Part shown: one piece after another, positions 11,853 through 19,125 of the stretch | Position numbering within the stretch: the first letter of the stretch is position 1 | Layout of the letters: each line of letters opens with the position of its first letter | Assembly (NCBI GenBank): GCA_905236375.1 | Contig: CAJOOW010000122.1 | Span: 1 to 21,397 of the forward strand | Reading direction: 5' to 3' | Source: an uncultured Alphaproteobacteria bacterium | Lineage (GTDB): Bacteria; Pseudomonadota; Alphaproteobacteria; RUG11792 | Length of the DNA stretch: 21,397 nt | Program-made: the position numbers and the translations under genes | The notes under the pieces: generated by a model | What the model was told of the DNA's origin: nothing | The model's input: only the letters and a program-made list of their open reading frames with translations | The model's database searches: none

Positions 11853-12701
11853 TTATTTTGAACTCATCATTGTTTCAGCTTCTTTATCAGAAAGCCACTT
11901 TTCATTTTTCTCAAGATATTTTAGCTGAAACATAAAACGTTCTGCAGAAAATTTATATTCATATGGAATTTTTTTCGATGCAGTATATTCAAATCCTTTA
12001 AATGCTATTTTCATTTTCTGCGCCAATTTTTCGACATTTTTCAAATGACTTAATGTATCATCGATAAAGACTATCTTTTTCGGATTAAATTTTGAATATT
12101 CCAAAAAATTTTTCAATGCTTCGCCCTTCGATCCAGGTTTTGCACAGACAATTCCAAATTCATAATACTGAGATTTGTCCTTTTCTCCAAACCATTTTCC
12201 TTTAAGATCTGACCAGGTTTTCGAAAAATCAAATCCAAATTTCTCAAGTTCATTCTGTCTCAGTTTTATCGAATATTTTTCATTTAACTTTTCATTCCGC
12301 ATAGAAGTTATAACCAAGACTTTAACTTTTCTTTCTTGAAGATCTTTTACAACTTCTGGCATATGTTCATCAACAAGAACTTGATCAACTGACTCATACA
12401 CTATCCCTTTTAGCTTTTTCATCTTCTTTTCGACTGATGGCTTTTGTTTGACTAGATCATCAATGTATTTTTCAACCAATCTATAATTTTCAGGAGCAAA
12501 AACGACATCAGTTTGATGAATTAGGACATCATCGCAATCGAATACTACAAAAGTTGATTCATCAGCATCTTTTAGTTCTTTTTCGATAACATCAAGCGAA
12601 CTTGTCGTTGTTATTTCTGGAGACTTTACAGCATATTGCATCCATGCAAAGCAAGCTGCTAAAAACGTGAGGGTTGCTATGTATATGAGTTTCTTGTTCA
12701 T
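11853..12701 (-). CDS. HAD-superfamily phosphatase, DUF2608 type, probable lipoprotein (copy 1)
   Basis: 282-residue paralogue of the downstream gene. The N-terminus MNKKLIYIATLTFLAAC ends in a lipobox (LAAC, C17), predicting a lipoprotein; failing that, it is a membrane-anchored exported protein. HAD motifs: I, FDCDDVLI with D55 and D57; II, VITSMRN with T132; III, GSKGEALKNF with K192; IV, VFIDDTLSHL with D214 and D215. The two proteins share the C-terminal pattern FEYTASKKI / YECTYSKDI before a helix rich in F, Q, Y and K. The start ATG 12701 overlaps the acetyltransferase stop by 4 bases and is preceded by GGAGATAG. Substrate unknown. Confidence 0.82.
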   Translation of the reverse strand: MNKKLIYIATLTFLAACFAWMQYAVKSPEITTTSSLDVIEKELKDADESTFVVFDCDDVLIHQTDVVFAPENYRLVEKYIDDLVKQKPSVEKKMKKLKGIVYESVDQVLVDEHMPEVVKDLQERKVKVLVITSMRNEKLNEKYSIKLRQNELEKFGFDFSKTWSDLKGKWFGEKDKSQYYEFGIVCAKPGSKGEALKNFLEYSKFNPKKIVFIDDTLSHLKNVEKLAQKMKIAFKGFEYTASKKIPYEYKFSAERFMFQLKYLEKNEKWLSDKEAETMMSSK

Positions 12702-13318
12702 TCTATCTCCAATTCAGAAGTTAAAAGCTTATCAACATTTTCTCGTATCTTCTCAATATCCCAATTCCACCAGGAAATTTCAAGCAATTTCTTTATTGTT
12801 GATTCATCAAATCGCATTCTGATGATTTTTGCTGGATTTCCTCCAATAATTGCATAATCTGGAACATCTTTTGTAACCAATGCTCCCGTTCCAATTATTG
12901 CCCCATTTCCGATATGAATTCCTGGCATTATTGTTGCGTTATATCCAATCCAGACATCATTTTCGATAACAGTATCTCCTTTATTCGGAAACACCAGCGA
13001 TTTCGGATGATTCTCAGCTATTTCTTTATCGAAAATTGCAAATGGATAAGCTGTCAGATATGAATGATTATGAAAAATTCCATTCATCAAAAACTTAACA
13101 TCCTGTGCTATTTGACAGAATTTCCCAATAACTAGCTTATCTCCACAAAAGTCATAATGATATTTCACATTCTTTTCAAAACGTTTCGGATCGTCTTCGT
13201 CATCATAGAATGTATAATCTCCAACTATAATATTGGATCTTGTTATTATATTTTTCAGAAATATGGTTCTTTTTAAGCCTGCAACTAGAGGATAGAGAGT
13301 TGTTGGTTCTGGAAACAA
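12698..13318 (-). CDS. Vat/XAT-family hexapeptide acetyltransferase (type B CAT-like)
   Basis: 206-residue left-handed beta-helix acetyl-CoA transferase of the xenobiotic acetyltransferase class (Vat streptogramin and CatB relatives). It shows DKLVIGKFCQIAQDVKFLMNG, then H83 (of FHNH) in place of the catalytic histidine of MNGANH, then TAYPF, GDTVIENDVWIGYNATIMPG and hexapeptide repeats, IIGGNPAKIIRMRF, and the WWNW motif near the C-terminus. The start is TTG 13318: an in-frame stop is the codon just before it, GAGG lies 6 bases upstream, and PEPTTLYP aligns with the true N-terminus of Vat proteins. It is first of three genes with the two HAD phosphatases. Family members may act on antibiotics or on sugars, so resistance should not be assumed. 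Confidence 0.88.
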   Translation of the reverse strand: MFPEPTTLYPLVAGLKRTIFLKNIITRSNIIVGDYTFYDDEDDPKRFEKNVKYHYDFCGDKLVIGKFCQIAQDVKFLMNGIFHNHSYLTAYPFAIFDKEIAENHPKSLVFPNKGDTVIENDVWIGYNATIMPGIHIGNGAIIGTGALVTKDVPDYAIIGGNPAKIIRMRFDESTIKKLLEISWWNWDIEKIRENVDKLLTSELEIE

Positions 13319-15145: not shown

Positions 15146-16360
15146 ATGTTTTCAAATTTTTTCAAAAATTATGTATATGGCAAAGTTGGAGATTCAAAAT
15201 CCGCCCTTGTTTCATACAGAACGGCTCAGTGTTTCTTATCAACTGATTATAATGATCTTTCAGAAATCGGCTATAAAAAGAACGTCATTGTTTATCGATG
15301 CGTTCAGCTTATTGCGAGGGCTTTGGCTTCAGTTGAATGGAATTTGCGAGATGGAGATCAAACCTTTTATGATCATGAAATTCTAAATCTCATAAATAAG
15401 CCCAATGCAAAACAATATAAAACAACGTTCATGGAAGAGGCTATTTCATATTTGCTTCTTTCTGGAAATTGTTATGCTATGGTCGAACGAGATGAAGATG
15501 ATAAGCCAAAAAGTCTCTATCTTCTTCGTCCTGATAGAATGGCGATAATTCCGGGAGATGGAGAGTTTCCATTGGCATATCAATATCAGATGGCTGATAA
15601 GAAAAGACTTTTTGAAGTTAATCAAAAAACAGGAGAATGCGATATTTTGCACATCAAACTTTTCAATCCTTTGGATGATTGGTATGGAATGAGTCCGATT
15701 GAAGCTGCTATGGGATCGATTAATCAACACAATGCCATAGCTCAACAAAATACTTCATTTCTTCAAAATGGAGGAAGGCCTTCAGGAGCATTGATGTATA
15801 AGTCTTCAATCGATCCTCAAAAACGCGGAGAACTTAAAGATAATCTAAGAAATCTGTATGAAGGAGGAAGAAACGCTGGAAAAATTCTGCTTCTCGAAGG
15901 AAATTTTGAATGGAAAGAAATGGGACTTTCTCCAAAAGATCTCGATTTTATTTCAGGAAAAGAACTGGCAGCCAAAGAGATAGCTCTGGCATTCGGAGTT
16001 CCGAGCATCCTAATTGGATCGATGACTTCTGCAACTTTTGCAAACTATAAAGAAGCACGATACAATTTTTGGGAGGAAACTTTGATTCCTCTTTTGAATA
16101 TAGTCGCTGGAGAATTCTCGAATTGGTTTCAAATGATTTTCAAAACGGATTTGAAACTTTGGTATGATCTTGATTCAATTCCTGCATTAACAAAGAAACG
16201 CGAAATCGAGTGGAGAAAGATCAATAACGCTGACTTCCTAACGCAAGACGAAAAACGCGAAGCCTTCGGCTATGGCCCTATGAATGATGGAAAAGAAAGC
16301 AATGACTCAGAATCATTATCCAAATCTCTAACAGATCAAACTGCTTCCTTACAGCGCTGA
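15146..16360 (+). CDS. HK97-family phage portal protein, likely gene-transfer-agent type
   Basis: 404-residue portal protein, a ring subunit through which DNA enters and leaves a phage or gene transfer agent (GTA) head. Length is close to that of alphaproteobacterial GTA portals (about 400). It shows NVIVYRCVQLIARALASVEW (46-65), EEAISYLLLSGNCYAMVERD, LYLLRPDRMAI, ILHIKLFNPLDDWYGMSPIEAA, LLEGNFEWKEMGLSPKDLDF and IALAFGVPSILIG, then YKEARYNFWEETLIPLL, all family patterns. The start ATG 15146 has AAAGGA upstream. No terminase, protease, capsid or tail gene lies beside it, which fits scattered GTA genes of Rickettsiales-like bacteria or a prophage remnant. Its last codons overlap ileS by 25 bases. 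The frame is open throughout. Confidence 0.9.
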   Translation: MFSNFFKNYVYGKVGDSKSALVSYRTAQCFLSTDYNDLSEIGYKKNVIVYRCVQLIARALASVEWNLRDGDQTFYDHEILNLINKPNAKQYKTTFMEEAISYLLLSGNCYAMVERDEDDKPKSLYLLRPDRMAIIPGDGEFPLAYQYQMADKKRLFEVNQKTGECDILHIKLFNPLDDWYGMSPIEAAMGSINQHNAIAQQNTSFLQNGGRPSGALMYKSSIDPQKRGELKDNLRNLYEGGRNAGKILLLEGNFEWKEMGLSPKDLDFISGKELAAKEIALAFGVPSILIGSMTSATFANYKEARYNFWEETLIPLLNIVAGEFSNWFQMIFKTDLKLWYDLDSIPALTKKREIEWRKINNADFLTQDEKREAFGYGPMNDGKESNDSESLSKSLTDQTASLQR

Positions 16361-19125
16361 CAGAGATTGGCTTGTCCAAACTCCGTGTCATAATTTGCAA
16401 TTTCCGTCGAGATCTTCCAACATCTATCGCATTTAATGCCGGCAACTTTTTTCACAACGACTCCAATATTAATCTCTTCATTAACATTAGCATTCGAAGG
16501 AACTTGAGCGTTGATGATGGAAGCCTTAGATACAATAGCTATCTCTGCAAGGTCTAAAGACTCGAACAATTTAATATTATTAAGATCATTAGAATATATG
16601 TAAATTTCACATTCCAAACTCGAACCAATTGTTTTTGCACTTCTTTCAACTTCAATTGATTCTGTTACAGTTTTTCTCAGAGATTGTATAACATTCCATT
16701 TTTTCTCCAACTCTTCATTATGCCACTCCGCTGCAATTTCTGGAAAAAGCTCAAGATGAATACTCGTTTTTGCAAAATTAAATGGATATGAAAGCCAAGC
16801 TTCTTCTGCGGTAAATGACAAAACAGGAGCTAACCAATGAGTCAAGCAAACAAATATTTCATTCATAACCTGCAAACAAGCCAATCGTTTTGGATCGTCT
16901 TCCTTATCGCAATAGACTGTGTCTTTTCTGATGTCGAAATAAAACGCAGAAAGTTCATTCGCGCAGAAATTGTGCAACTCTGAATAAAAGGCTTGAAAAT
17001 CAAACTTCTTCAATGATTCGCGGAGCAATTTATCGAGATCATAAAGCCTTGATAGCATGAATTTTTCCAATTCTGGAAATGTTTCACGTGAAACATTTTG
17101 ATTTGGATCATAATCAGAAATAACGCCAAGAAGATATCTTAGAGTGTTTCTAAACCTTCTATAAACATCTTGTTGGCGTTTTAGAATTTCATCTCCAATT
17201 CTCATATCTTCAGAATAGTCAGAATTCAAACACCAAAGTCTTAAGATATCTGCTCCAAGTTTTGTCGTAACATCATCTGGAGCCACGACATTTCCCAATG
17301 ATTTCGACATCTTGCGACCATCCTTATCAAGAACAAATCCATTGGTTGCGACTTGAAGATATGGCGCTTTTCCAGTCGTGCAAACAGATTCAACCAGCGA
17401 TGATTGAAACCAGCCACGGTGTTGATCTGAGCCTTCAAAATAGAGATCTGCTGGCCATTTCATATAGTCTCTGTTCCCTTGAAGAACATAATGATGAGAG
17501 CAAGCGCTGTCAAACCAAACTTCAAGAGTATCTGAAACTTGGATATAATCATCTGGATTATATTTTTCTCCTAAGAAATATGAAGCTGGTCTAACTCTCC
17601 AGGATTCAATTCCTTCATTTCTAATTGTCTCAACGATTCTTTCAAAGACTTCATCATCCATCAAAACTTTATCTGTCTTCTTGTCGATGAATAAAGCAAT
17701 TGGGACCCCCCAAATTCTTTGCCTTGAAATACACCAATCTGGCCTCTTTTCAACCATCGATCTTATGCGATTAACATAAGACTCTGGGAACCATTTTGTT
17801 TTGTCTATTTCACTTAAAAGTTTGTCTCTGATTCCATCAATTCCAATGAACCATTGAGTCGTTGTTCTGTAAATCAAAGGGGCTTTAGAACGCCAAGAAT
17901 GAGGATAGCTATGAGTTATTTTATAAGCATGAACCAAATTCCCAGCATTTTGAAGTTCTTCAATAACATGAGGATTAACTTTAAAAATATGTTCTCCAGC
18001 GAAATGAGGCAATGTTGAAACCAATGTTCCATCATCATTAACCGTATCTTCTATGGGTAATCCAAACTTTTTCCCAAGCAAAAAGTCATCCATACCATGA
18101 GCAGGCGCCGTATGAACTAGGCCTGTTCCAGCATCAAGTGTAACGTGAGAAGCTGGCAAAAATGGCACTCTTTGATTAAAACCAAGGTTCTTCAAAGGGT
18201 GATCGCAAATGATTCCTTCCAACTCTTTTCCGGAAAAAGTTTCCAGAATTTCACAAGATTCAATTTCCGCCTCTTTTGTAAACGATGCAACAAGCTCTTT
18301 TGCAACTATCAGCTTGTCATTTCCAGTTTTCAGAATAACATACTCAAAATCTTCAGAATAAGCAATTGCCTTATTTCCAGGAATTGTCCATGGAGTTGTT
18401 GTCCAGATGACTGCATAGCAACCTTTAAATCTTGGATCTTTTGTTTCAGAAATGGGAAATTTGACATATATCGCATCACTGACTTTGTCGTGATATTCCA
18501 GTTCAGCTTCAGCCAAAGCGGTTTTTTCAACGACTGACCACATAACCGGTTTTTTGCCACGATAAACCATTCCTTTTTTGAGAATTTCAAAAAACTTCTC
18601 ACAAATGGTGGCTTCCGAATCCTTAGCCATGGTGCAATACGGATTTTCGAAATCAGCAATTATTCCGAGCTTTCTAAAACCTTCTTTTTGAATTTCAAGC
18701 CAATGCGTCGCAAACTCTCGGCACTTTGACATAAACTCAGCAGCAGGAACATCTTCTCTCTTTTTGCCTTGTTTTAAATAGCTCTCTTCTATTTTCCATT
18801 CAATAGGAAGTCCATGACAATCCCAACCAATGACTAGTGGGGCATTATAACCCAGCATTTGATACGATTTCGAGACAGCGTCTTTCAGGATTCCAATCAA
18901 AGCATGCCCTATATGAATCGGGCCATTCGCATATGGAGGGCCAAAGTGAACTATAAACTTTTCTCGATTTTTAGAGGCTTCACGAAGTCTTTCAAATAGC
19001 CCTGAGTTTTTCCATTCTTCAACAATCTTTGGCTCTTTCCTGGCCAAATCTCCCTTCATGGGAAAATCAGTTTTCGGCAAGAAAACAGTGTCTTTCAATT
19101 GCTTTTTGCTACTTTGGTCTGTCAT
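16336..19125 (-). CDS. ileS: Isoleucyl-tRNA synthetase
   Basis: Class I synthetase charging tRNA(Ile); 929 residues, the usual bacterial form. PPYANGPIHIGHA contains HIGH at 71-74. The CP1 editing domain shows WTTTPWTIPGN (241-251) and GTGLVHTAPAHGMDD (333-347). DWCISRQRIWGVP is at 463-475 and KMSKS at 605-609. The anticodon-binding domain follows, then a C-terminal zinc knuckle with C899, C902, C922 and C925. The start is ATG 19125, agreeing with the FPMKGDLA..EP spacing of other IleRS proteins. Two oddities: a perfect parS site is written into codons for NVSRETF (677-683), and the last 25 bases are shared antisense with the portal gene. Confidence 0.98.
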   Translation of the reverse strand: MTDQSSKKQLKDTVFLPKTDFPMKGDLARKEPKIVEEWKNSGLFERLREASKNREKFIVHFGPPYANGPIHIGHALIGILKDAVSKSYQMLGYNAPLVIGWDCHGLPIEWKIEESYLKQGKKREDVPAAEFMSKCREFATHWLEIQKEGFRKLGIIADFENPYCTMAKDSEATICEKFFEILKKGMVYRGKKPVMWSVVEKTALAEAELEYHDKVSDAIYVKFPISETKDPRFKGCYAVIWTTTPWTIPGNKAIAYSEDFEYVILKTGNDKLIVAKELVASFTKEAEIESCEILETFSGKELEGIICDHPLKNLGFNQRVPFLPASHVTLDAGTGLVHTAPAHGMDDFLLGKKFGLPIEDTVNDDGTLVSTLPHFAGEHIFKVNPHVIEELQNAGNLVHAYKITHSYPHSWRSKAPLIYRTTTQWFIGIDGIRDKLLSEIDKTKWFPESYVNRIRSMVEKRPDWCISRQRIWGVPIALFIDKKTDKVLMDDEVFERIVETIRNEGIESWRVRPASYFLGEKYNPDDYIQVSDTLEVWFDSACSHHYVLQGNRDYMKWPADLYFEGSDQHRGWFQSSLVESVCTTGKAPYLQVATNGFVLDKDGRKMSKSLGNVVAPDDVTTKLGADILRLWCLNSDYSEDMRIGDEILKRQQDVYRRFRNTLRYLLGVISDYDPNQNVSRETFPELEKFMLSRLYDLDKLLRESLKKFDFQAFYSELHNFCANELSAFYFDIRKDTVYCDKEDDPKRLACLQVMNEIFVCLTHWLAPVLSFTAEEAWLSYPFNFAKTSIHLELFPEIAAEWHNEELEKKWNVIQSLRKTVTESIEVERSAKTIGSSLECEIYIYSNDLNNIKLFESLDLAEIAIVSKASIINAQVPSNANVNEEINIGVVVKKVAGIKCDRCWKISTEIANYDTEFGQANLCQRCKEAV
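17077..17098. promoter_or_regulatory. parS centromere site (ParB binding), inside ileS
   Basis: Bases 17080-17095 read TGTTTCACGTGAAACA, identical to the parS sequence bound by chromosomal ParB (Spo0J) proteins, including the Caulobacter-type consensus. The palindrome extends perfectly to 22 bp (17077-17098). In ileS it encodes NVSRETF. ParB loads at such sites, spreads, and with ParA moves the origin region to the cell pole. A 16-base exact match by chance in a window of this size is very unlikely. Confidence 0.9.

Follow-up and report, generated by a model that had tools for sequence, protein, structure and literature searches.

The 22-bp palindrome at positions 17077..17098 of the window, the whole 21,397-nucleotide stretch analysed here, is very probably a genuine chromosomal parS site, one of at least six in this genome that lie within genes in an NVSRET reading frame. 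The window corresponds to contig C122 in a draft genome of 830,535 bases in 163 contigs (78% complete), and the family of this source genome is what we take to be GTDB order RF32. In ParABS systems, ParB dimers load at parS, clamp shut with CTP, and then slide along the adjacent DNA, and the resulting partition complex is used by ParA and SMC. A parS site inside a gene for an essential enzyme must satisfy two masters: the enzyme itself and, presumably, the machinery that sorts the chromosome. This double duty leaves a codon signature that can be measured.

The core of the site, TGTTTCACGTGAAACA (17080..17095), has 0 mismatches to the 16-bp parS consensus as given in the earlier note. The palindrome around it, AAATGTTTCACGTGAAACATTT, is perfect over 22 bp, so the exact parS and its 22-bp extension are both as the earlier note had described them. 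The core is the sole match in the window at up to three mismatches, a looseness at which 7 of 100 shuffles gave at least one match. For the exact 16-mer, a first-order Markov model derived from the window predicts 5e-6 occurrences per window and 0.0002 per 830,535 bases. The adjoining bases are also conserved: the base preceding the 16-mer is A in 52/54 and the base following it is T in 50/54 exact family sites (54 of the 60 such sites, from 12 family genomes, with the parS-rich relative G001 left out). This A/T flank around the 16-mer is a family-wide preference. Keeping the 16-mer does not entail keeping all 22 bp: the ileS site of the relative G025 has TTC as its seventh codon where the window has TTT.

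The genome-wide search that the earlier note had proposed returned six exact copies in the source genome, none at one or two mismatches, and four at three mismatches. A control pattern, reversed and not complemented, gave no exact match and two at up to three mismatches. The six copies stand against about 0.0002 expected by chance. All of them lie inside coding sequences and share one reading frame, NVSRET: the site reads NVSRETF in IleS, in a dihydrolipoyl-dehydrogenase-like protein (Lpd), and in the biotin carrier protein; NVSRETL in YidC and, close to the end of the protein, in LeuS; and NVSRETS in DotU. These host proteins belong to different families, IleS and LeuS excepted. Only the Lpd site falls inside a Pfam domain; the other five sites are in non-domain stretches, which make up 17-51% of those five host proteins (the LeuS value is approximate). 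The copies occupy six different contigs, and the 9.2-kb contig with parB has none. When aligned pairwise with 200 bp of flank, the copies match over just 19-36 bp at the site. The parS 16-mer can be read in two open frames; the third contains a stop. The coding copies elsewhere in the family comprise 14 in the NVSRET frame, 13 in the MFHVK frame, and 2 at ORF edges, so that the use of NVSRET in the source genome (6/6 versus 14/27) amounts to a mild bias (p 0.035) resting on crude ORF calls.

The host gene of the window copy, ileS, is essential and lies at 16336..19125 on the minus strand, where it encodes an isoleucyl-tRNA synthetase of 929 aa. The site forms IleS residues 677-683 (NVSRETF), in the linker to which the earlier note had assigned it: by Pfam, the synthetase core covers residues 34-643 and the anticodon-binding domain 688-843. 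This linker is readable in 29/35 family genomes; three of the 29 carry the site (the source genome, G025, and G029) and 26 do not. All three carriers spell six codons alike: AAT GTT TCA CGT GAA ACA. Elsewhere in ileS, the codons of unchanged residues are identical in 281/721 cases (39%) for G025 and 333/722 (46%) for G029. The product of the per-residue rates over the six unchanged codons is 0.0009 for G025 and 0.0024 for G029, two figures that are not independent, as the sequences are related. The Arg codon CGT is rare in the source genome, where it makes up 9/97 Arg codons across four genes, and a synonymous-pattern search of that genome found no NVSRET with a non-CGT Arg codon. In the 35 genomes, irrespective of frame, the same search gave 24 matches in seven genomes; the 16 in G001 are kin of the same palindrome. 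To judge from these alignments, the ileS codons look held by selection on the DNA rather than on the peptide.

That the peptide NVSRETF is itself selected, or that the match is a product of chance, is scarcely credible. That all six copies share one frame, compared with 14/27 for the family's other coding copies (p 0.035), is what a selected peptide would predict, but only two frames are open at all, the third having a stop, and chance yields 0.0002 exact matches. Moreover, the three of 29 IleS linkers with NVSRETF all use one codon set, synonymous versions with another Arg codon are absent from the source genome, and the host proteins, apart from the IleS/LeuS pair, come from different families. 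Codon identity and the synonymous-pattern search led us to disfavour peptide selection. An alignment of ileS orthologues had been set beforehand as a check, and it found NVSRETF only together with the six site codons. The dual-use sequence envisaged in the earlier note is thus supported by identical codons in 3/3 carriers, compared with 39-46% codon identity in the rest of the gene.

The site has a restless history in ileS. In an IleS tree built without the linker (cut out in 28/29 rows; the G008 row kept it), the three carriers fall in one clade of the source genome and genus g3, with support 92/79. The pattern on the tree needs at least three changes, be they a single gain with two losses or a series of gains; separate gains are possible because the IleS linkers of G025 and G029 have five extra residues. 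The ileS parS site is evolutionarily labile under either scheme. Relative to most relatives, the site of the source genome swaps residues and leaves the length unchanged.

Two other genes of the window deserve mention. An HK97-type phage portal gene (15146..16360, plus strand; TIGR01537, 222 bits) is convergent with ileS and sits among housekeeping genes; it is perhaps the remnant of a gene-transfer agent or a prophage. On contig C15 of G001, a similar portal ORF, recognized by eye, lies about 10 kb from parB and adjoins three parS. At 12698-13318 of the window, a hexapeptide acetyltransferase resembles Vat/CatB xenobiotic acetyltransferases, below curated cut-offs.

ParB, the presumed partner of the site, is encoded in the source genome as well. 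A ParB query from the relative G002 matches the first bases of source contig C153, which encode 58 ParB C-terminal residues and then a stop. The presence of parB had been named beforehand as a test, and this C-terminal piece at the opening of the contig provides it. Profile searches found no TIGR00180 or PF17762 match in the source genome, and hence no ParB DNA-binding domain; the parA, rsmG, and tsaB pieces of the G002 query found no match there either. The names of the parAB neighbours (thrS, tsaB, rsmG, and others) were assigned by eye. We take the missing parA and the missing DNA-binding part of ParB for an assembly gap at the locus.

The relatives supply the intact protein. A PF17762 match is present in 27/35 family genomes, 14 with exact parS and 13 without; the exact site therefore does not follow from the mere presence of such a ParB. 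An Arg and a Gly (R173 and G201 in Caulobacter numbering) mark the parS-reading ParB, according to the excerpt of PMC7383237. The stretch KSR...N...GH[AG], with the parS-type Arg and Gly, is kept in 15 of the 16 family ParBs read (positions by eye). In the exception, G022, the GH stretch of ParB is lost and the helix-turn-helix is degenerate, and no site at up to three mismatches was found within the 20 kb examined. Among genomes without the exact site, variants lie near parB in G012 (TGTTCCACGTGGAACA) and in G023 (one mismatch); G003 and G004 have no site variant within the 3 kb examined. The ParB of G025 matches solved ParB structures with E about 1e-48. Clusters of exact sites adjoin parAB in G001, G002, G005, G013, G025, and G029. 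A Noc-binding site (NBS) was also considered for the window palindrome and rejected, the sequence being an exact parS and the relatives' ParBs having the Arg and Gly in 15 of 16 cases.

Genus g7, represented by three genomes, has no exact parS and no PF17762 match. One of its members, G020, encodes a 114-residue ParB-like protein beside parA (L287, on the minus strand of G020:C21 at about 26.0-26.4 kb). In this protein the N-terminal KLGRGLSALFG and the C-terminal domain are retained, and the CTPase and DNA-binding parts are missing. A similar short ParB-like frame is found in G026 (G026:C1:41640-41819), which has no exact parS. The joint loss of parS and of the DNA-binding part of ParB in g7 supports the motif as the ParB site.

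Genes with parS are also seen upstream of parAB in G005, where sites lie inside two genes (L204:3880-4338 and L204:4891-5583). Judged by eye, one of these genes encodes a small acetyltransferase and has two parS read as MFHVKH, of which one recurs at the same position in G029; the other encodes a radical-SAM protein and has a single parS in the NVSRET frame.

At the other extreme stand relatives that are rich in parS. Family genomes have 0 to 10 exact parS each, with the exception of G001, a member of another genus, which has 60 in about 1.0 Mb and a single PF17762 match. In the class as a whole, a draw of 385 genomes that did not include G001 gave at least one exact parS in 282; four genomes exceed ten, with 13, 18, 18, and 78 sites. 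In G001, 59 of the 60 sites were seen, on 39 contigs (loci L144-L192), and 56 of the 59 are outside called genes. Eighteen contigs of this genome, chosen blind to sites (210 kb), hold nine sites on eight contigs. The whole genome has 77 places at up to two mismatches, and variants with one to three mismatches occur. The last of the four genomes, G264, belongs to another family of the class. Its 78 exact parS, in a genome of 1.8 Mb, form clusters and tandem arrays of 35-37 bp on at least 11 contigs (49/78 sites seen; loci L224-L243). Its parS expansion is apparently independent of that in G001. The gene calls for relatives follow a simple longest-ORF rule that is unreliable within the tandem arrays of G264, and its coding count of 18/49 seen sites is likewise unreliable and was set aside.

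Many of the G001 sites belong to a repeat. Site-spanning similarity, with overlapping windows left out, joins 26 of the 59 sites into one diverged repeat family with a core of 16 copies that have at least 15 partners each. Identity in site-spanning alignments of at least 120 bp is 70-94%, with a median of 76%. When only the left flank was profiled, with the site itself excluded, 22 places were found in G001. Twenty of these extend to the site, and 20/20 have the exact 16-mer there (5/5 on the blind contigs); the remaining two matches are partial and weak. This profile was trained on 24 site-bearing copies, including five on blind contigs, and so leans to site-bearing copies. As far as these alignments tell, the parS site of G001 is being kept while the surrounding repeat decays.

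Palindromic elements of Rickettsia land in genes, and the palindrome of the source genome could similarly have spread as a short palindromic element, mobile or repeated, with ParB binding incidental. The G001 repeat family and its tight 16-copy core are what such spread would leave behind. Against it, the six source copies align over 19-36 bp only, the ileS site replaces residues with no change in length versus most relatives, and the flank-matched G001 copies all carry the exact 16-mer despite a median identity of 76%. We consider this explanation very improbable; for the window copy a palindromic mobile element was rejected on the ground that the six copies do not share flanks.

The same palindrome could also act as an RNA hairpin, for example as a two-way transcription terminator. 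Perfect arms of at least 12 bases in 46/59 G001 copies fit this idea, as do G001 variants that are still able to pair, such as TGTTTCACGCGAGACA, and the placement of 18/47 classified intergenic copies between convergent gene pairs, which account for 35/177 gaps (crude gene calls). However, pairing alone does not need the exact letters, and a terminator would do harm in the interior of an essential gene, which is where the window copy lies. We give a hairpin function almost no weight.

Where the six sites lie on the chromosome can be approached through the gene order of relatives. Because dnaA and parB are about 3 kb apart on one contig in G005, parAB indicates the dnaA side in this relative at least. 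Several host genes share a contig with parAB: the distance to parAB is about 16 kb for ileS in G022 and about 8 kb for dotU in G023, and yidC is about 21 kb from parA in G012. A 144-kb contig of G015 has parAB at 30-31 kb, yidC at 54 kb, ileS at 111-114 kb, and accB at 135 kb, which puts ileS 80 kb from parAB. In all, 4/6 host genes are on parAB contigs of five relatives, compared with 9/67 control ORFs from 20 contigs picked by rule, every eighth one (p 0.008). Counted by contig, 5/6 site contigs and 5/20 control contigs map to the relatives' parAB contigs (p 0.018); against size-matched controls (contigs of at least 5 kb) the comparison is 5/6 versus 4/8 and is not significant (p 0.24). None of the six ORFs on the parB-fragment contig C153 maps to these contigs. 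GC skew, a check that had been proposed, is too noisy in the relatives' contigs to give a clear origin. The chromosomal address that the earlier note had read from the site is thus upheld in part: ileS is on the parAB contig in G022 and G015. An origin-side position is plausible, not proven. Loss of the palindrome in relatives combined with a place far from the origin had been named as evidence against a centromere; the loss, which is half of that item, is found in 26/29 ileS.

The dispersal of sites invites the reading that they have left the origin and spread chromosome-wide, with ParB taking on a chromosome-wide role in nucleoid organisation, in SMC loading at many sites, or as a Noc-like division guard. 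The six sites on six contigs, with none on the parB contig, point in this direction, as does G001 with its 60 exact sites on at least 39 contigs and at least one site on 8/18 blind contigs. On the other hand, the source genome has just six sites, four of their six host genes are on relatives' parAB contigs, and parS-type residues are kept in the ParB of 15/16 relatives. We regard such a role as unlikely in the source genome.

Under the preferred reading, that of a chromosomal parS within ileS, ParB dimers would load at the ileS palindrome, clamp via CTP, slide outward, and build a partition complex that would serve ParA and SMC; as the earlier note predicted, ParB might spread over the portal, rplI, and plsX-fabH genes. 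At least six such sites would have been written into genes, and in the five cases outside Pfam domains the added peptide is presumably tolerated. Across the family, whose members are gut alphaproteobacteria with small genomes, the centromere may itself be evolutionarily mobile, the sites differing in number and place according to genus: no site in g7, where ParB has lost its DNA-binding part; six in genes in the source genome, mostly in protein linkers; and 60 in G001, dispersed over many contigs and in many cases borne by a repeat that decays except at parS. The ParB of G001 might then load over much of the chromosome and behave as a general nucleoid protein rather than as an origin marker. 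We put forward this whole proposal tentatively and hold it to be possible though doubtful. One family that includes both genomes with no parS and a shortened ParB and a genome with sixty dispersed sites offers natural experiments on parS as a mark of the origin and on the outcome of ParB loading at many places.

The founding survey of parS distribution is reportedly that of Livny in 2007. Intragenic parS is already known, and the window site adds one more case. A literature search for parS with the phrase 'within coding regions' returned no match, and matches for the site-encoded peptide were, by their titles, all on other subjects. Judged by titles and the starts of abstracts among the papers listed, we found no account of sixty dispersed exact parS in a 1-Mb genome and have not seen the dispersed, repeat-borne parS of G001 described.

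The sites of the source genome resemble chromosomal parS of ParABS systems in their exact consensus, in the presence of several copies and of parB, and in the clusters beside parAB in relatives; they differ in that all six copies found sit in coding sequences. The nearest precedent is Pseudomonas aeruginosa, in which 9/10 predicted parS are most likely in coding sequences, as the excerpt of PMC4368675 states. Centromere sites are written into genes in both organisms, whereas the source genome uses other genes, has every found copy in the NVSRET frame, and adds a measured codon-level conservation in ileS. Most bacteria have fewer than five parS and Streptomyces has 11-65 predicted, mostly near oriC, in the excerpt of PMC8743542. 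With at least 60 parS each, G001 (60) and G264 (78) are far above the usual number and resemble Streptomyces in copy number; G001 differs from it in that its 60 sites are packed into about 1.0 Mb, occupy at least 39 contigs, and in many cases belong to a repeat. The predicted sites of G001 also recall the Noc/NBS system, in which a relative of ParB has many dispersed binding sites, but the G001 site is parS and not NBS, and the ParB residues of the relatives are of the parS type as defined in the excerpt of PMC7383237.
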